A DNA stretch of 64,000 nt, taken from the NCBI GenBank assembly GCA_016212855.1, contig JACRDP010000015.1:1-64000 (forward strand), written 5' to 3'. The stretch is from Elusimicrobiota bacterium (GTDB lineage Bacteria > Elusimicrobiota > Elusimicrobia > UBA1565 > UBA9628). This document shows positions 6,462 to 64,000 of the stretch, in pieces. The notes beneath the pieces were generated by a model, which was given only the letters and a program-made list of their open reading frames with translations, was not told the DNA's origin and did not search any database. How positions within the stretch are numbered: position 1 is the stretch's first letter; every line of letters begins with the position of its first letter. Made by a program: the position numbers and the translations under genes.

Positions 6462-7301
6462 TCAGCCTTCGCACAGGCCGTTCAAAACCTGGAGCTGCTC
6501 GAGTCCCCGGCCCAGTTCCGCGCGCTCCATCGCCGACAACGGGCTCGGCGCCGCGGCGTCGTAGCGCTCGCGCAGCAGCTTGTAGAACTTGCTCCGAAGC
6601 TCGGGGTCCTTGATCTCGGTCCCGGGGTTGCGCGTGAGCGAGCGCATCGAGAAGGACGGATCCTTGAGGCGCTCGGCCCAGTAGCGGGCCTTGAAATCGA
6701 GCATGCGGCGCTCGACCGCGTCGACGCTCGCCTGGCAGGAGGACCCGCCTTTGGGCGCGTCCTCAGGCAGTTCGGGAACCGGCACGACCCAGGTCGCGGA
6801 CTCTTCGGTCTGGGGGCGATCCTCCCAGTCCTTCTCCGTCTTCGCGCTGGAGGCGGCCAGCACCTGGGCGGTCTCCGTATTGATGAGGCGGGCGTTGACC
6901 TCGATGCGCTCTCCCTTAAGCTCCACCACGGTCCCGGTCAAGATCGCGTCCACGCCCAGCACCTTGCCCAAGGTCTTCACCGTGCCCGGGTCCATGATGC
7001 CGAACCCGCCCAGGCGCTGCTCCTCGAGCACTTTCTCCAGGAAGCGGCGCTCGACGATGTCCAGCTCGCCGCGGGCCAGGATCTGGATGACCAGGCGCTC
7101 GGAGACGATCGAGCCGGAGAAGGTCGCGTTGCCGCGGGGGCCGGTAAAGGGGACGACCGCTACGCGCTTGATCTTGTGGGAGGCGGCCGCGCCGGCGACC
7201 TCTTTAGCCAGGGCCTTGATGTCGTCGGCCGCGCCCGCCGTACAGGCAAGGAGCGCGATCGACAACTTAGCGGCGCAAACCGTCCGGAAGACCTCTCTCA
7301 T
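6462..7301 (-). CDS. CsgG/FlgO-like secretion or assembly lipoprotein
   Basis: A 279-residue protein with a short signal sequence and probable lipobox (LLAC, Cys20), followed by a CsgG/FlgO-type domain at about 30-165: strand-rich VAVVPFTGPRG, then a mutable regulatory-like stretch ending in GTVVELKGERIEVNARLINTETAQV. Family members form or assist outer-membrane channels and surface-polymer export. The C-terminal 100 residues are helical and unassigned. The start codon lies 6 nt from the end of a predicted c-di-GMP riboswitch with no clear Shine-Dalgarno sequence, so expression is probably set by c-di-GMP. Its partner lipoprotein is the next gene. Confidence 0.78.
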   Translation of the reverse strand: MREVFRTVCAAKLSIALLACTAGAADDIKALAKEVAGAAASHKIKRVAVVPFTGPRGNATFSGSIVSERLVIQILARGELDIVERRFLEKVLEEQRLGGFGIMDPGTVKTLGKVLGVDAILTGTVVELKGERIEVNARLINTETAQVLAASSAKTEKDWEDRPQTEESATWVVPVPELPEDAPKGGSSCQASVDAVERRMLDFKARYWAERLKDPSFSMRSLTRNPGTEIKDPELRSKFYKLLRERYDAAAPSPLSAMERAELGRGLEQLQVLNGLCEG

Positions 7302-7307
7302 AGCTCG

Positions 7308-7423
7308 GTGAGGTCACCGTTTCGGCGGCCCGGCCAGCTTGGCGCTTACGCGCCGTCAGCTCCGTCGGCTTTGCGGCCCCGGGTTTCCCCGGGTGTGCCC
7401 TTCTCGGCCAATGACGACCTCAC
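7308..7423 (-). ncRNA. Cyclic-di-GMP-I (GEMM-I) riboswitch
   Basis: Read on the minus strand, this leader has the GEMM-I plan. P1 closes perfectly (GTGAGGTC at 7423-7416 with GACCTCAC at 7315-7308). P2 has the conserved AGGGCAcACC, a GAAA tetraloop and GGGgCcGCAAAGCC. P3 begins CGGAGCTGA and ends AAGCTGGCCGGGCCGCC. The base before the GGC/GCC pair, equivalent to Vc2 G20, is G, which favours c-di-GMP over cGAMP. The aptamer stops 6 nt before the ATG of the CsgG-like gene. Motif recognition is by eye against the Vc2 reference; a covariance-model search was not possible. Confidence 0.85.
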
Positions 7424-7424
7424 T

Positions 7425-7453
7425 AGCCTAACAGACGGAATGTTTACCGTAAA
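7425..7453 (-). promoter_or_regulatory. Promoter of the riboswitch transcript
   Basis: On the minus strand TTTACG (7453-7448), a 17-bp spacer and TAGGCT (7430-7425) form a reasonable sigma-70 promoter. Transcription would begin at or just inside the first bases of the riboswitch P1 stem, so the aptamer forms the very 5' end of the mRNA. Confidence 0.6.
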
Positions 7454-7475
7454 TTCACCGCTGTGTTACGCGGTG

Positions 7476-8174
7476 TTACGGCTTGGTTACTTTGCGATCC
7501 TCTAGGAAGCAATAGCCGAAATTCTTCACATTAACGATCCTTTCGGCGAGGTCCGCGGGGAGGGATTTTTTCAGACGATTGAGCAGCACGTCCAAAGCGC
7601 GCGATAAACCGGGGTCTTCGACCCCTTCGACCATGCGGTACAAATCCTCGCGCGAGACCGGCTGGGGGCTCTTTTCCACGAGAATGTGGAACAAGGTGAA
7701 GCCCTTCGGCGTCAGGGCGGCGGTCGGGGCTCCCTTCCAGAGAACCTGGCGGTCGGAGATGCGCAGAATCAGGTCGCCCCGGACGAGAACGCCCCGGTCC
7801 TGCTGGGCGCGCCGAAACAGCGCGTCGAGCGTGGCCATCAGCTCCCGGGAGTTCTCCGACTTGCTCACGAAATAGTCCACGCCCTTCTCAAGGCCCTCGA
7901 CCTTCTCGCTCTTGTGGCCGGTGAACAGGACGACGGGCACGCGCGCCAAATCCGGAATGGCCCGCAGTTTTTCGCAGACTTGGGCCCCGTTCTGGTCGGG
8001 TAGAAAGAAATCGAGGAGGATGCAGTCGGGCTTGCGCTGCACGGCGCACTCGAGCGCCTCGGAGCCGGTCACCGCGTATTCGACCGAAGCATAGCCGGCC
8101 GCCGGAAACCAGACCTTGAGCAACTCGATCCAGCCCGCGTCGTCCTCGACGACCAAAATCCGCTCAGCCCTCAT
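7476..8174 (-). CDS. OmpR-type response regulator
   Basis: A 232-residue two-domain regulator. The receiver domain (about 4-120) has E10-D11-D12, phospho-acceptor D55 (CILLDFFLPD), FTGH with the switch Thr, and the conserved Lys in YFVSK. A winged-helix DNA-binding domain (about 135-225) follows, with LTPKGFTLFHILVEK and a C-terminal hairpin NVKNFGYCF. No histidine kinase is adjacent. A TATCAT box lies at 8183-8188, 8 nt before the ATG, so the transcript probably has almost no leader. It lies upstream of the riboswitch operon in the same direction but with its own promoter signals between them. Confidence 0.9.
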   Translation of the reverse strand: MRAERILVVEDDAGWIELLKVWFPAAGYASVEYAVTGSEALECAVQRKPDCILLDFFLPDQNGAQVCEKLRAIPDLARVPVVLFTGHKSEKVEGLEKGVDYFVSKSENSRELMATLDALFRRAQQDRGVLVRGDLILRISDRQVLWKGAPTAALTPKGFTLFHILVEKSPQPVSREDLYRMVEGVEDPGLSRALDVLLNRLKKSLPADLAERIVNVKNFGYCFLEDRKVTKP

Positions 8175-61800: not shown

Positions 61801-64000
61801 TCCTGGAAGCCGAGCAGGTCCTCGGCCCGCGCGATCATCTGGTAGCGGTAACCGTCCGCGAAGGCGCCCTCGCCGATCGACCCGCCCTGGCTGGCGAAGG
61901 TCTGCACGGTCTGGATCGCGCCGCCGAGAGTCGTGGGCAGGTTGAAGCCTTGGTCCACGACCGTGAACGTCGAGCCGTCCCAGTAATGCGGGTTGCTCCC
62001 CGCATCGAGCTGCACGGCCTTCATGCGCACCTCGAACAGGCCGATGCCCTTGGTCGCGGCCGCGCTCTGGTCGTCAGCGGTGCCGGTGACCGGCGTGATG
62101 TTTCCCGGCAACGCGGTGTTGTCGCCGGGATACGTGAAGCCCGAGACCGGCTTGTGGTAGTCCAAGCGCAAAGTCTTGCCCGTGCCGATGGTCGGCACGC
62201 CCGAACCCCGGTTCTCATTGCCCGCGGCGTCGATGCCGCGCGCGTAGAACTCATACGACAGAGGAACGGCCTGGCCGATATTGATCGCGTTCGACAGGTT
62301 CGCGTTTGTGAACGACCAAGAGGACGCGAAGATCTGCGCCGGGAGCCAGCAGGTGCCCGCGTTGAAGGACACGAAGGCCGAGCCGTCCCAGTACGAGCCG
62401 AGCGGGTTGCGCACCGCGATCAACATCTGCGTCAGCGCGGAGCCGACCGAGCTGTACGTGCCGGTCGAGCGGACGAAGGCGGTCGCGTAGCTCTGATCGA
62501 TCGGCGTCACGATCGTCGTCGTCGGCGCGAGCGCGTCGAAGTCGAAAGTGTAGCTGACCAACGTCTCGACGTTGCCGGTCTTGTCGGTCGAGCGCAGATC
62601 GACGGTATACTTCTCACCGTCCTGCCAACCGGGCAAGGTGTCACCAGCGGGATTTGACGGCGGGTATGTCCACGAGGCGGGGTCGACCGTCGTCGTCGAC
62701 ACCGTGCGGAAGGCGACGGGAACGTTGAAAGATCCGCCCTGCCAGTATTGGCCGTCGGAGAACCGGCTGATCGCGATCTCCACCTTCTCCAGGCCGGACT
62801 TGGCCTGCGTGGACGGAAACAGCACCCAGTCCAGCGCGGTGCCCGACAGCGGCGTGCCCGCGAAGCTCGCCGGGTATGCCGGCTGATTAGGAACGGCAAT
62901 CGTCGTCGAGGGCTTGTTGACGTCGTATTTGAACACCACCGGCGCGCCGAGCCCGGAGTCGTTGCCGGCCTGATCGATTCCTCCGACTTTGACCGTGTAC
63001 TGCTTGTTGTCGAGCCACGCCGGCGCGGCATACGTCCACGGGTTCGTGGAGACCGCGGGCACCGTGCTGGCCGTCGCGGTCCAGGAGCCGTTCCAGTAGA
63101 GGGTCGGCGAGTCGGAGATGTCCTTGATCTCGATGTACACGCTGGCGACGCCCGCGGGAGAGTCGTTCGACGTGCCGCGCACGGTGACAAGCGGGCGCGC
63201 CGTGCCGTAGTTCGGATACGCGGGCATCGGCGTGGAGATCACGACGCTGGGCCCCACCTGGTCGAGGACGTACTGCGCCGTCGTCGGAGTCTCCAGGTTG
63301 CCGGCGTTGTCCTTGGCCTGGATCGCGATGCCGTACGGCGTGCCGTCGCCCTGGGTGATCGTCGGGAACGAGTGCCCGGTCGTGCCGGGGTAGTCCCAGG
63401 CCACCGTGCCGGAGGAGCCCGTGATGGTGACGGGCAACTGCACCGGCACGTCGGGCGTGCCCGTGTTCCAGCCGCCGCCGCTCCAATAGTAGCTGCTCGC
63501 CCCGACCACGTACCAGACGCGCAGGTAGTAGGTGGCCGCGCCGGACAGGTCGGAGTTCGACGTGCCCGAGATCGCGTTCAGGTCGTGCAGGAAGCCGGTC
63601 ACCGGCGGGTTCTGTACGACGGAGATGGGAGGATTGTCGTCGACCTTGAAGTCCACGAGGCTCACGTTCTGCGTGAAGGTGTTGCTCAGGTTGCCGACGA
63701 TGGAGCCGGCGACGTCCTTGGCGCGGTCGCGCGCGCGCGTCTTCGCGTGGTACTGCCGCTCGTTGACCCAATCCGCCGCGGTAAAGAGGACCTGCCAGGT
63801 CGCCGTGCCGGCGGTGACGGTCAGCCACTGCGCGGCCTCGACCGTGTTCGAGGAGAACTTGGTGCCGTTGGCGCTCGGCGGCTGGTTCACGACGCCGGTG
63901 TAGTAGTAGCTCGTGTTGCCCTGCACGTACCAGATCACGTTCTGCACGGTCTGCAGGGCGTCGTTGGCCGGGTACAGCGCCGCCTCGGGGTCGGAGGCCG
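40860..64000 (-). CDS. Giant multi-repeat surface protein, N-terminus beyond the window
   Basis: One open frame spans 23.1 kb (at least about 7,713 residues) and is still open at the right edge, so the start is not seen. Zone 1 (about 54,820-64,000) has about 23 Ig-like modules with a FD..P..I.GT..D opening and a YW or C..C pair. Zone 2 (about 48,000-54,820) has about 17 invasin/filamin-like modules marked by [TVS]AG and D-x-[FYW]-x-N. Zone 3 (about 42,600-48,000) has about eight modules with NVAMLRL and Ca-loop-like DxDxNG motifs. After an FG-GAP/fibronectin-like stretch, the last 110 residues form a FlgD-like Ig domain (FPNPF...TWNGRNDAG), often a sorting tail. It is probably an adhesin or surface fibre. 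Confidence 0.9.
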   Translation of the reverse strand, partial: ASDPEAALYPANDALQTVQNVIWYVQGNTSYYYTGVVNQPPSANGTKFSSNTVEAAQWLTVTAGTATWQVLFTAADWVNERQYHAKTRARDRAKDVAGSIVGNLSNTFTQNVSLVDFKVDDNPPISVVQNPPVTGFLHDLNAISGTSNSDLSGAATYYLRVWYVVGASSYYWSGGGWNTGTPDVPVQLPVTITGSSGTVAWDYPGTTGHSFPTITQGDGTPYGIAIQAKDNAGNLETPTTAQYVLDQVGPSVVISTPMPAYPNYGTARPLVTVRGTSNDSPAGVASVYIEIKDISDSPTLYWNGSWTATASTVPAVSTNPWTYAAPAWLDNKQYTVKVGGIDQAGNDSGLGAPVVFKYDVNKPSTTIAVPNQPAYPASFAGTPLSGTALDWVLFPSTQAKSGLEKVEIAISRFSDGQYWQGGSFNVPVAFRTVSTTTVDPASWTYPPSNPAGDTLPGWQDGEKYTVDLRSTDKTGNVETLVSYTFDFDALAPTTTIVTPIDQSYATAFVRSTGTYSSVGSALTQMLIAVRNPLGSYWDGSAFVSFNAGTCWLPAQIFASSWSFTNANLSNAINIGQAVPLSYEFYARGIDAAGNENRGSGVPTIGTGKTLRLDYHKPVSGFTYPGDNTALPGNITPVTGTADDQSAAATKGIGLFEVRMKAVQLDAGSNPHYWDGSTFTVVDQGFNLPTTLGGAIQTVQTFASQGGSIGEGAFADGYRYQMIARAEDLLGFQESILSTTTFIVDRSTPTSTLLRPSNGNWISTATLALSSGSFTEPLVGGGVTSGLSEVRLQIEDISDLASVAHAIPGGNRYWNGTTWQVAPVSTTAVVYSSSWTLFNFPTGVDIVRGDASPNGRQYAIRAIATDLAGNAGAFPNYFVSRATIAFDGTPPNSGVTTPPDGLDTTVLGTITGTALDPLINASSSDVNAVYLAIQNDCVNAGNFDPNACSYWNATSNTWVPGTPVWNATVYNPAIPDWQFLSGTIDSNLFVGSYYILSSSASDKAGNTRPMPVSGEASYSRARFQPPAAVTAITAPTNNQYYNILNGFGGTANGPYPGTGPAIAVELQLKRADTGQCWGVGQGWVSCVPATTTNTRTVTPAAGLWTYPVNGDFLPDWTPINNTTFTLQSVGMNYALQRETPAQLTQFYIDRSSPVSSVSFPAPGAFLATAPTLTGPTNDPFAANGAGIKTVKFTLRRLDTGNYWNHLTSTWTGSVTQSTAVYNLIGNSWSYTSSTPTLTWMSGLSYTLDVFSEDKAVGAANGNTEIPAAPITFSFDSSLPGVAIVTPTAAPPRQALGIPATIAGTSGATAPNTVNKVELRVLQTAGAVFANPAAALNFNLVNGDLAWFDATYAVDWTSWNVSSAVPFVNGDIYDIVARSRNQAGTYSVPYATRTITYDNAAPQSGVSVPANGSIIKTLPAITGTTNDYPLGNPGVVAQMRARLKRLSDGKYWDGFSAGNWSSSVVDLGPAQGVTVFTSSWAIAAIRIPPVGPADLISGVSYYLTVSGLDDAGPSGNGEAWNSAQSSTFTFDDSAPLAGISSPLDVTFRNSVPSFSGVSNDNVQVSTVQLTLSDSVSGNCYNPAINAFTLPCPFWFGAQGSTTSWSYAFPVQPWVQAATYVLRSSATDLANNVQTALSSAAFTFDVNAATAGLTVPSVGALGPALGNIAGTATDAPAGVYGLSLAISSGAGLGNWYNGATFTGGVPTFFSTSSYVIGAFDNWSWAYPSLVDGALYTLRARTLDRAGNQRDQDFGFRFDRSSATASITDPVDGGFKTGNFVLTGGSSDVDPDGAGPLGGTNVSTVSVSIERLDTGLCYNPIGNAFNLPCPNFIAAGGAPGAWTFAPGPGSPYLTTRSYRVTALATDNAGNTQTVFGSGVSSNTFTYNTGVPTVLVTVPTTGVRRRDLTTLQGTANDPIPTSLSLVQVRILRQTGVNRFANPAGGHPFDIDPSVAPETAWFNAATGSIPAWTAWTLSSGLPHVTGETYRVEARAFNGAGTMSTTYSTQTVVYDIDPPVTDVRLPISFSTISALPQLTGTAFDQPVTASGTIANLRLRIVRLTDNTYWTGAGFSPAPTELTTAEGIQIHVSSWTMSNTLALPPANNTPSGLQHGVSYYITTSGVDDAVPGGNTESFNDPLKTSTVTVDLVGPVAVFTAPNDGSIISSLSKIRGTAADALAGVSNASQIEVAIQETSPGAGCWNGTIAGGTFTAAGCPVTFYPLTGADRAGNFNQISTFWDVNAPPLTSLYSYKVTVRARDNATPAGNLTSVPTTSSITFSYNTNLPSAAILVPPALPAAGGNLGAAFTVSGTANDSFGVTGTSIAYQEGDTNMYWDPAFSTFSSLTAIWTPTTVLTPSPAYTFSTAAPVPAASSGRNYNLFVKAINTAGLEQIVPAITVKWDTSKPAATVSVPANNTFGKTLPSVTGVASDPGVAPSGVAGSQVQIKRNAAGDCWGGGAWGANCTTDASWLGAVAGTPWTKATQLPAADNTPGGLQDGLLYEISARAFDLATNTQTATTANLFRFDVSSPTVAVALPANGIRYSSLPLISGTAADTAPGAFNVAFPRVRIHDVTVNQYWVNGTGWVTSAFPGFPDLWNNSVDSTSVAGVFTWTFDSSAIPWPDSNNNLNVEVQALDAAGNYNIVSSTFSFDATRPASGILYPPADGVTYSTMAVINGTSTDNTSPITDVGIKMWYLSGPSTYYWTPATPHWQLTDSGFWSVSGSAGPPATINPWTYNSVQIPDFANPGTLNYAWKEGTHDSANGHVFNIVSRALDGAGNAQVVFTTRTFRFDNVPPTSAPVSPLNNSGYRSLTNLSGTSVDDVGSVAAVSLSILDQDTTKYFDGTSFASTPEFWLPILPTNLFPSSWTFTSGSLAFSTTHHYLVKSSATDNIGNVQNIVGSSRFLFDTDRPNSSVVNPVNLTTYDDTKILIGGSNDPGFSAGINGSGVGVVPTLGWHQGAIDVVVFRDTVPLIVGGPVLFGGWDATGFFWNGSTWVAASGGPVFVPAAFTDAFGNWQYDGLTCPRPIPTDPCWVRGDPYVSWIRATDNAGNQQSVIQNGPRFFVSGVAQSFSISLSSDPSTAGNDETITVTARDGLGGTGGVASSYSGTVHFLMVDGTGGPETSDDDLVSDSLHGLPADSIFDAILHNGTRNFTIRMRKAGARILRVQQSDNAALFGVANLTINRQPSTRVQLIADCDPLGQQAAPGVVTVGSEGRSGSPRARTAGQTVVYCANVTDDFYNVDPGSVTTVWVSDPSDPNNDSVSPDQAVAITGSASFNRIFVTADVVGQVVQSTGSGPFPNASNPATPVVVVGQPADRLVALLPNDIRVQGKFAVAPFGKMLGAQDQVQAGSTIALRVFAVDPFYNDDTSVALPVTAKVLSDAFTGSISQTLQLGTTRFVFTPVVAGTQIFQAQSASLPGATSNYITPNPATVWWAPPTKLQMIVEGQVAGPGKPAYDSNPTTGGRLVAAPALLTAGVTTTITLNMTDDWFNVVKATTPFMPLTSSVTMPLVQLDFLNDPNIQLRGLAPNPYQRTLVAGTTTMAFVPVTRNAGMQLRITDTNLTGTYLSTDTVSGIAVQANTPLSLLVQMPGETYAEGTLSGKTGSPSTLTAGTAYGVTLRAVDLYNNRAVDGRQVLLSANDPYASIPAPQSLALGQTIFAGFLPSAATGNLVVSGVDNDVLFPVLTGQTVSNVSVIPGTPDRMIVALPGQTLVPGKNVAPFGVAGTVTQSTAGVFFNATAYATDSRYNVVTTVAKPSIVFTSDDPFVPSLGSVAMAAGAAPLGSILLRTAGTRVLTSADGGGGIALSNGVSGGMTLLPNNPTRLRVMTPTESRVPGSTTNGRTGAVYTAQAGFVFNATVDIADSFWNLTPGVTQQIRLRADDAFAVIVPTTQVVTTSATFSVTLRAAVPTVLTAELVDGLSTPSLASDNSTSIPVLAGTPSRLLTILPGEAPSQGSPTGKSGTAGVQTAGLPAFDVQVGVVDAFFNLVPGYPPVGQLVVQLIVPSDPYAPSIATAAVNTLSGLTPVMKVNLHRAATGHYLVASDFGGSGLSNDPQSSTFSVIAAAPLGLQLLMPGQTAVPGSGNYPSGGVTGAISTPTAGTPFTATVNLVDQFMNLAVAVSPPQVYLNTSDTYDINPSTLALTLGGSAPFQTMTRTPNLALVTKASNTVVRVFPQATVPDQVCTANGPSNICLASAPAAVTAPFKVFASTAFALQVTLPGETQKPGKCDYLPGAVCRLLGPTEGLPGKDNTPTPYIVTSPPMLGDVWLVDQFYNPVTDLPVGPNQDTNPPAVMPTVSLNFPFDPAAGVTLAPPFALLILGNRQFNFTPLTTATGYTVIVATISSSASTWPNATSAGFPVHPGPAHHIHWSGLPASVTAGAAFSGALTIHDQYSNILSTGPNAYKSNVTFVAELFGGNQDPAFLPSNNVTFSSGTPPVGQMTLTSFAQLKKAGTRTLRAEETANPGVVNSEVAGFTTPTTILVTPASPDSMKAAPLDDTSISAGSLLPSAPGNTAITGQLTDAFDNPITAGATVYVQVVTVSGATGTITVGGEPVIGFSTTVISDAFGRVGVSTPIVYYVSSKAGDYARIWVGTMTAPSNLAPYIAAKKDISGALTTIGGLPSQLVFVSTPTSAVAGIDDVAGAGGQYVIQRLDDFNNVTRQGDNLIQLKVPNSEKAIQTAAGRTQGTSSPLGDYGFRNVDLGVPSNTNTTFIPNFTIFDGFTGAETPFRFHSRMSSYSGASPAVNTGEGSRPGLWTIELYLTSGTIALSHQLRVDPVGSDHVGFANPARSEVAGKTVDFGSTLAKFTPQIQDLFNNPIVATQTYTVNLTTVTRQASRYNDYVAFSRSSDAVNGSRTLAPFFVTSTQTVDIPLGQYQATFYYLDTTATTNYSLIGGTKPVIGLTATGLFGRNQGVFIIPDVIDRVALSTGVPQTLLAGTTSQPIFIETRDFFGNPSPVRPGQDFGLGYIELGVNSNSSGQVAFSTGGQAGNFGPPPGVVNLEVNKSATSFYLIDTLLTVGGGSHTLSASGVTYPSWEVGYATYGVNPGPPAQIGWATPPRRLIAGTTVQYESGVTTNTVVAAQLLDQFGNVTSTSSTFIIRYNTILTQDLYAGIDPTAVIVATSPSGFWTPLFGNQIDVTIPGGAGLTQGPFYMWGRLAGGATVQAQAQLGGTAVFPPITQVHQITPGRAVYLSVNHPYTAASPLKVGITGLLSVKARDLFGNVAAGDAANGNIFSGAVNFASNGSTSTVSLLDLGSLPVGATFHNFTPTEAGSYVNLGLVDTVVENLNVQATYYQDSSLFGYTNDGARFGLPANPALRSDPDVVLAGIIVTPTDFAPESNPPPNGPIPPAKVSFGVTKRTLNQGDGNVPTSPDPVPMLRLDMRVFPSGQPLIGELQGMRVYRRDPETNFDTNKVTEVALWLDDPSAQNGRFDPVTDMFVATAVYNGAGTWYFGTAPPPYNQTALNALPPPVLGNLTINAAQSKFMFVTVKIASSGYSNGELPRSFGLTIIGASDITLDPVSQVGVASNNFPIKTSTSSVEREPAQINVLTASTSDYDINAWWQPPLLSLSTYTYVNQGALNVGVMRLSMWTDGFTGALSKITVNHSGTGLDSAISKVKLYLDTQSNQVTTPGDGILNFSIDRLVTEATFPPGETRLAAINIPSPLGVNGTIDVATKTYFLVYDYDASAEPGQTHGMSISNANIVPLAGNGVVKTFSPIASTQVVVMATPDQVVMTDWNRQGTSTSAVATDAIPSKVSQNDKNQPVAKVTLRVNSGAADWSGLKLDRWVPSTMLSGGGYNSLLALNNKASDVTNVKVWLDQDGDGLLDISSDSQVSPLNAVVHLFPSAPTAIPLYATGTLVGINLDVIGIATMFPSDNPFPNDQESRLVLNDNQTNELLKEVVYCHGLDLGNNRYTNCDRAQEGTAAQDYPTGTVISGPARIPIQSLIGGGGQTIDTGKKDYYVTFDINPLATVSPQANIGIAIPTTSYFKIASPKTMATTNVGVQPPGRSISFVANLAEYADLVRMSALDSIDSGLGPYLQQKSTVAVAVVNMSADIADASWRWMLVYATGTATQGGSIAGDVDETQLWFDVNNDGIFNPTNDVLVGSGTFGNYQGLPLVSQINLYPPLKIVTALLAPQPQRYFVALRMSATARPTDQFTFQPRTLGVDVRPTSLPTLSPVTDNPFLNSLALPNSYDPASPLPFGGKVRAIIAAPQVMSVKATPYFSTSSGTYPAPTLETVIGVNPAGTVEPVWLVSSTQGLPVPALGATDYMLIDGEIVGYTDVNPAGTGIVNVIRGYLNTVPTAHSTGTYLAPQIEQGQNNLAALRLDLTSGGFEVQLSELKLNRSLPLGLNGDDLDLSTVKIYKSADGVFHRDPATGLNISDVLLGASYFGAPPEAPGRIAIALNDAQIGSPGYTLITSTPSVLYVAFDVSVSAKFSHPTLTPPNEVTGVNVPDGTRFKLTPTNAGHTTVFVGTTPVASPTFVVAPTINTVTVDFDQVSGNTAFQNSKNVAMLRLRLRTDRNTAIVTRLKIDRTGANGALDSDVNVIKLWQDVDGNSNFTIADSTPGPLGDYPNLISFGNETFSSATVTLVLKKPILVGTTPSDYFLTYDISQFAAEGNKLGVAILNPNYVTLQVPNIVAFSTPTFGSNPLLTITKVISQVTFGVNDVAAGIGGVTQAQSNVAMLRMNLTTDIALAPWRALRVERGGGSQDTNKPLGRNTNVKFIRVFKDINQNDALDLNDVNISEVNTTLVTAVSSSVAAPFDLVVTSTKGFPIDNSGTAVGGKILLNGAELMTFAGPGCPTAFTPGVDNATGKPCLAIISRGDLLGTAPSPTINHSVGVPVRKVDVYNQGNDSDVQALVTLNADQFIGPTAQAFFVAYDIGDAAVQNDLINLTVRDPSWIVMPRGDAVLPSFLTGITRINPLGTGSTTYPYVGSNVAINPITLQVSGVSLAPSGAGQGDANVAVLQVDMKTTSDFVAVSQIRFKQHGTITTSSVALTGDGDASFIKVWLDNGDRVFTSNLDTLIGVLPVSTAGAFSNGVALVSLTQGAFPFVRVTTATASFFVTADIGYIDRLGGNTLTHTLGFQLEKFVDIIAPDGAPVVAAPDPVKQPPIISKALLIAPLTVPGVSVSSMVPPIIVTRAGPGVPGNALGFPAWAKVDTVNCNNGKDPVNPRNNICYDANANPIPDQTKWICPDGTPWPAGCGSGASPLIDVNGDGAPDNFKIGESTRPTQVSLLGDGTPTTDLTGTGILDVDINKDGIVDLVLFAPGSNKPQFRIGLDVADQGNLAKTAADPGQGLAPSAWAKSAGSLNFNLPIVGTSGYYQVAVGRFYDDPIGITHKWSSVTATSIAGLSAASYFGVLAASAPITGATLGNLVLEVPNITRILTPLTQDTTFFYVDNWTSLTLPGLVYVGSEIMRVKKGTIANTLEVVFQSGDPAPFTGRGLRGSAPIIHTAGELLSDSGAILFAQFVSAAGSMSPPQPMWVYRVDPGAPTTPGAATPLEQGKVMYSVRWSPSLQLVSGVAAYEFQERGGDPKDLAQTVIWRTLNVVASRLTTYNVGDPTFPGEGARKASQFYSYRVRAISGAGVTSNWSPLAQSAGTGVSDTILSGVSNFPNPFDSRKGGDLGITKITYTLNADADVTITIYDALGYLVKTLSAAPGSEGGKTGMNFVTWNGRNDAGILVSKGGYTARIRAKAPGGTATAIRKIGVIH

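Follow-up and report, generated by a model that had tools for sequence, protein, structure and literature searches.

In the GEMM-I riboswitch Vc2, a translational OFF switch, ligand cannot be bound without the P1 helix, and in the cGAMP riboswitch of Geobacter pilM a strand that stabilises the aptamer is common to aptamer and terminator, the device being an ON switch (both from the part of PMC9262584 available to us). In the add riboswitch of V. vulnificus, a translational ON switch, P1 nucleotides become part of a hairpin domain that forms without ligand and sequesters the start codon, a known example of an ON switch that conceals a start codon by strand exchange (excerpt of PMC5847336). Tte preQ1-I, SAM-III and preQ1-II are grouped as direct-occlusion riboswitches in the available portion of PMC10907184.

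The locus described here lies on the minus strand of a 64,000-nucleotide stretch of Elusimicrobiota DNA, the whole of which is called the window below. As judged from its sequence, it shares with Vc2 and pilM the aptamer fold and the ligand-contact residues, and differs from them in that the competing strand is formed by early codons of the gene, no terminator was found, and Vc2 is translationally OFF. The likeness to add would be a ligand-free hairpin over the start region that uses a P1 strand, which at the window locus is a predicted one; in contrast, add belongs to another aptamer class and hides a Shine-Dalgarno sequence, whereas the window locus has none and the partner strand is formed by codons 3–6. 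Direct-occlusion riboswitches also place the aptamer near the start region, but they are OFF with ligand and contain the ribosome site within the aptamer, a reading that we do not favour for the window. Unusual for GEMM-I are a partner strand formed by coding sequence, the lack of a Shine-Dalgarno motif, and the occurrence, among related species, of three output forms with the same sensor and gene. A search of the open literature, with subscription papers mostly outside its scope, returned no account of this arrangement.

The earlier note had proposed a GEMM-I aptamer at this site and a covariance search with Rfam RF01051 as the check. In cmscan the model matches positions 7409–7321 (minus strand) with 53.1 bits (E 1.5e-07) against a gathering cut-off of 35, confirming the assignment, and this is the sole Rfam match over cut-off within the window; the genome carries two more GEMM-I copies besides this locus. 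In Vc2 numbering, G at position 20 favours c-di-GMP over cGAMP. By family the element is a c-di-GMP-I aptamer, and its predicted ligand is c-di-GMP. The residues G20, A47 and C92, named as ligand contacts of Vc2 in the accessible text of PMC4744006, correspond to G7399, A7372 and C7325 in a hand mapping onto the cmscan alignment, and all three are intact.

Complementarity alone defines a P1 helix of 8 bp between GTGAGGTC (7423–7416) and GACCTCAC (7315–7308), in which GACCTC (7315–7310) is extended by A7309 and C7308; the helix is shorter if the 5′ end lies downstream of 7423, with 2–3 bases of the 5′ strand lost if transcription starts near 7421–7420. Together with CGG at 7319–7317, GACCTCAC forms what we call the exchange strand (7319–7308). 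The 3′ strand of P1 ends at 7308, so that the helix occupies positions −7 to −14 relative to the ATG. The original description of an aptamer ending 6 nt before the start codon is correct for this strand but not for the Rfam core, which ends 19 nt before the ATG. A possible promoter was recognised by eye immediately upstream (TTTACG at 7453–7448, a 17-nt spacer and TAGGCT at 7430–7425); the six closest relatives carry the promoter-like arrangement TTTACA-17-TAGACT, and similar motifs are visible by eye in G224 and G226. A strict consensus promoter scan listed none at 7425–7453.

The putative target gene (7301–6462, minus strand) encodes a CsgG/FlgO-like outer-membrane protein of 279 aa, with Pfam matches to CsgG (2e-11) and FlgO (8.5e-07). 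Its ATG (7301–7299) is the only one near the start of the reading frame, the other in-frame starts being a TTG at codon 13 and the next ATG at codon 103, and start positions agree across 7 close orthologues. The leaders of 7 of 7 close orthologues contain none of the Shine-Dalgarno motifs GGAG, GAGG and AGGA upstream of the ATG. Among the 33 genes of the window, the set on which this statistic was computed in place of a whole-genome one, such a motif precedes 9 first starts, compared with 13% of random positions. After a 16-nt gap the FlgO-like gene is followed by a gene for a 172-aa, lipoprotein-like product (6445–5927, minus strand; LLAGC by eye), which gave no Pfam or NCBIfam match and is possibly in an operon with it.

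The sequence GAGGTC in the 5′ strand of P1 recurs, as first reported, at 7295–7290, that is, in codons 3–4 of the frame starting at 7301. GACCTC at 7315–7310 is complementary both to this copy and to 7421–7416, so P1 and codons 3–4 compete for it. The match is longer than first noted: CGG (7319–7317) can pair with CCG (7287–7285, codons 5–6), giving an alternative helix of 6+3 bp whose coding partner strand spans 7295–7285 in the predicted fold and whose topology recurs in 9 orthologues. The ATG falls in its 14-nt loop. Some folds also pair the 3′ strand of the aptamer itself with the coding sequence, up to codon 11. A search of the 170 bases downstream of the aptamer showed no intrinsic terminator in the window or its six closest relatives, and a consensus terminator scan of window positions 7150–7520 was equally negative. 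The proposal that there is no separate expression platform is fair insofar as the searches showed neither a terminator nor a Shine-Dalgarno motif; coding sequence would then serve as the platform.

At the window locus alone, the six-base match is explained by chance. When the start of the gene was randomised, 13% of nucleotide shuffles and 69% of synonymous recodings gave a match of 6 bp or more between its first 36 nt and the leader. In duplex energy the start region is 4th among the 33 window genes, 16 of which, the FlgO-like gene included, have at least 9 pairs enclosing the start. A test in which the leader segment was left free was not significant (P 0.32 by shuffles, 0.49 by recoding), and all tests of this locus together span P 0.06–0.74. 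Because the match is ordinary at a single locus, the observation from which the analysis started cannot by itself carry the interpretation.

Support for the start-codon hairpin, which is not significant at the window locus alone, comes from comparison with relatives: nine of 20 orthologues with GEMM-I have it. In these, the ATG-enclosing helix is built from five distinct sequence pairs: GACCTC/GAGGTC, GACCTC/GGGGTC (with one G-U), GACTCC/GGAGTC (five species), GAACGTG/CACGTTC and GCTGAAGG/CCTTCAGC. The change from GACCTC/GAGGTC in the window species to GACTCC/GGAGTC in the G015 group is a double compensatory one, and G014 is intermediate between the two via its G-U pair. In G224 and G226 the helices are unrelated in sequence, 7 and 8 bp long, and P1 is just ~3 bp by eye. 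The predicted ligand-free fold is dominated by the ATG-enclosing hairpin in 8 of the 9 orthologues, with mean pairing probabilities for the helix of 0.67–0.99 in the eight relatives (3′ ends +30 to +90). The window RNA, at 0.06–0.92 (+18 to +90, three 5′ ends), is the weakest of the nine. When five leaders were paired with five genes in all 120 ways, the pairing of each leader with its own gene ranked 1st by summed duplex energy; taken singly, 2 of the 5 (G014, G015) prefer their own gene.

The outcome of statistical tests of this helix varies with the measure used. For five loci that were picked from 11 tested, after their hairpins had been seen, free-segment capture gave combined P values of 0.001 (shuffles) and 0.002 (recodings) with the best 6-nt leader window, and of 0.0045 (shuffles) and 0.058 (recodings) over all pairs. 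Coding capture in the other six loci was 0.00–0.14 for the four of the pre-ATG hairpin type (described below), 0.33 for G228 and 0.80 for G022. By longest helix or duplex energy, shuffles gave P 0.0013–0.024, and 0.0009 in a further run, while the summed values did not reach significance by synonymous recoding (P 0.18, 0.13 and 0.39), so that much of the signal could stem from the encoded amino acids and from codon bias. Two smaller P values obtained with a fixed segment (2e-5 and 8.5e-4) were set aside as biased, since the segment had been chosen after being seen. Overall, its presence in nine orthologues, the five sequence solutions and the double change speak for conservation of the start-codon hairpin.

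A protein search over 340 genomes of the phylum identified a close FlgO-like gene (E ≤ 1e-40) in 31, and GEMM-I precedes it in 20 of these. The 20 include G230, whose aptamer scores 31.7 and is thus under the Rfam cut-off, and G226, which has two FlgO-like genes in tandem with the aptamer ahead of the first. The remaining 11 are G012, G021, G035, G227, G175, G181, G199, G201, G202, G221 and G222. In 9 of them RF01051 had no match at cut-off at the scanned FlgO loci; for G227 no aptamer is listed on its two FlgO contigs, one FlgO-like match lying at a contig end, and G199, whose locus was not fetched, is counted as lacking GEMM-I in the 20 of 31. Species at 65–67% protein identity have retained the aptamer, its distance to the ATG and the promoter-like motifs.

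The output devices of the 20 loci fall into three types. Nine (G000, G014, G015, G016, G006, G018, G005, G224 and G226) pair leader and codons in a helix that encloses the ATG. In four (G229, G233, G234 and G230) the aptamer 3′ strand forms a perfect pairing of 10–12 bp with the leader just before the ATG (shuffle P ≤0.0005), and the coding region pairs no better than shuffles. Four others have a hairpin and T-run before the gene, and these hairpins use the aptamer 3′ strand in runs of 9 bp (G036; shuffle P 0.003), 5 bp (G037; 0.49), 9 bp (G041; 0.003) and 8 bp (G017; 0.017). The last three, G022, G228 and G010, match none of the types clearly. Two FlgO-linked aptamers, L050 (G036:C40) and L093 (G041:C32), have by eye an A in place of G at Vc2 G20, the change associated with cGAMP-binding GEMM-Ib riboswitches. 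Judged by their sequences, the loci most likely represent an order-wide riboswitch family ahead of FlgO-like genes that exchanges the 3′ side of its aptamer.

Folding of window RNAs of increasing length suggests when such an exchange could take place. For RNA starting at 7423, the probability of P1 is 0.88 with the 3′ end at +18 and 0.10 at +24; that of the coding helix is 0.06 at +18, 0.75 at +24, 0.33 at +30 and 0.89 at +36, the value at +30 ranging from 0.20 to 0.33 across 5′ ends. With the 5′ end at 7421 or 7420, P1 at +18 drops to 0.33 or 0.00, so the true transcription start matters. The predicted order, P1 and then the coding helix, would be suited to a choice made during transcription, though the model is unsteady. 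When the aptamer core alone was enforced, the coding hairpin still formed, so the model by itself does not show release by ligand. Under the same constraint, P1 differed from the coding hairpin by −1.3 to +6.3 kcal/mol, with a cost above zero in 11 of 13 cases (seven orthologues with two assumed starts each, without the shorter start of G014), and ligand must therefore pay for P1.

Based on these observations, we consider the window element to be a GEMM-I riboswitch that acts on translation by ligand-ON strand exchange, with a probability of roughly 0.55. Aptamer and P1 would form first as the RNA emerges. With c-di-GMP bound, P1 would persist and leave the start codon, 6 nt further downstream, accessible. 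In the absence of ligand, codons 3–6, once transcribed, would capture the 3′ strand of P1, perhaps with an extension to codon 11 via the aptamer's 3′ strand, and so enclose the ATG in the loop of a hairpin; the hairpin would hinder 30S binding and undo the aptamer. This mechanism is favoured by the lack of a terminator and a Shine-Dalgarno motif at the locus, the P1 data, the pilM precedent and the order of folding. Of the ON switch that the earlier note had predicted, the start-codon hairpin is supported by the relatives, and the direction of the switch is something that we infer, from the use of the aptamer 3′ strand in terminator or pre-ATG hairpins of relatives and from the requirement of Vc2 for P1.

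The main rival is an OFF switch by occlusion, in which P1, held by c-di-GMP 6 nt upstream of the ATG, blocks the ribosome and the match to codons 3–4 is incidental. Its position at −7 to −14 does put P1 inside the ribosome footprint, the window's own codon match is not significant by itself, and Vc2 offers a translational OFF precedent within GEMM-I (PMC9262584, in the part available). We nevertheless regard occlusion as unlikely: eight orthologues retain a strong predicted ATG-enclosing helix via different sequences, and the four pre-ATG pairings and four terminator-like hairpins use the aptamer strand in a way that ligand would be expected to undo. Distinctly less probable is an aptamer that works mainly on transcription or mRNA stability, for instance through access of Rho or RNase after failed translation, with the start hairpin assisting; the hairpin and T-run between aptamer and gene in four relatives would fit such a role, but neither the 170-base search in the window and its six closest relatives nor the consensus scan of 7150–7520 yielded an intrinsic terminator. 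A relic aptamer, or one whose ligand binding has no regulatory effect, with start hairpins that are chance products of GC-rich DNA, is very improbable given the retention of aptamer, ATG distance and promoter-like motifs at 65–67% protein identity, even with start-enclosing hairpins as common as 16 in 33 window genes.

Returning to ligand-ON strand exchange, a broader scheme can be put forward tentatively, at rather less than even odds. One orthologous GEMM-I would follow the same logic throughout this order of Elusimicrobiota, giving up its 3′ side without ligand, and only the partner strand would vary: a terminator, the leader before the ATG, or the coding sequence. In the window's clade, a start without a Shine-Dalgarno sequence would be governed purely by a hairpin shared with codons 3–11, and the first residues of the protein would be partly dictated by the switch. 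The loci would then form a natural series in which sensor and gene are constant and the output device differs among related species, and the window locus would be a simple example of coding sequence that may also act as expression platform. If this is true, platform searches restricted to the region upstream of the start codon miss some.

GEMM-I aptamers were also seen at other genes. At G000:C25:24420-24500 (L001) and 26 related loci, the aptamer lies 1–14 nt before an in-frame ATG of PorV-like genes, with a P1 partner seemingly in codons 1–3 by eye; among these 27 loci, which were sorted by a motif, 20 have a hairpin and T-run 79–155 nt after the aptamer. Outside the window, at G000:C10:76346-76425 (L086) and in relatives, GEMM-I lies ahead of a gene for a GLDVRD-type secreted protein. 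The long hairpin downstream of this aptamer has a loop, CGGGA(C/T)AGAGGGG, that by eye is conserved across genera, both where the stretch is readable as coding and where it is not; a script search of the G000 locus found no hairpin with a T-run. Terminators inside PorV-like and GLDVRD coding regions were considered and set aside: in pairwise codon comparisons across seven species, the PorV stretch has 131 non-synonymous differences to 17 synonymous ones, unlike a coding sequence, which leaves its reading frame unproven. Four further aptamers (L101–L104) contain ~50 extra bases within the first hairpin. Elsewhere in the window, a 7,695-aa open frame at 63947–40860 (minus strand) is a candidate giant surface protein; it matches bacterial Ig-like domains weakly and has a FlgD Ig-like domain close to its end.
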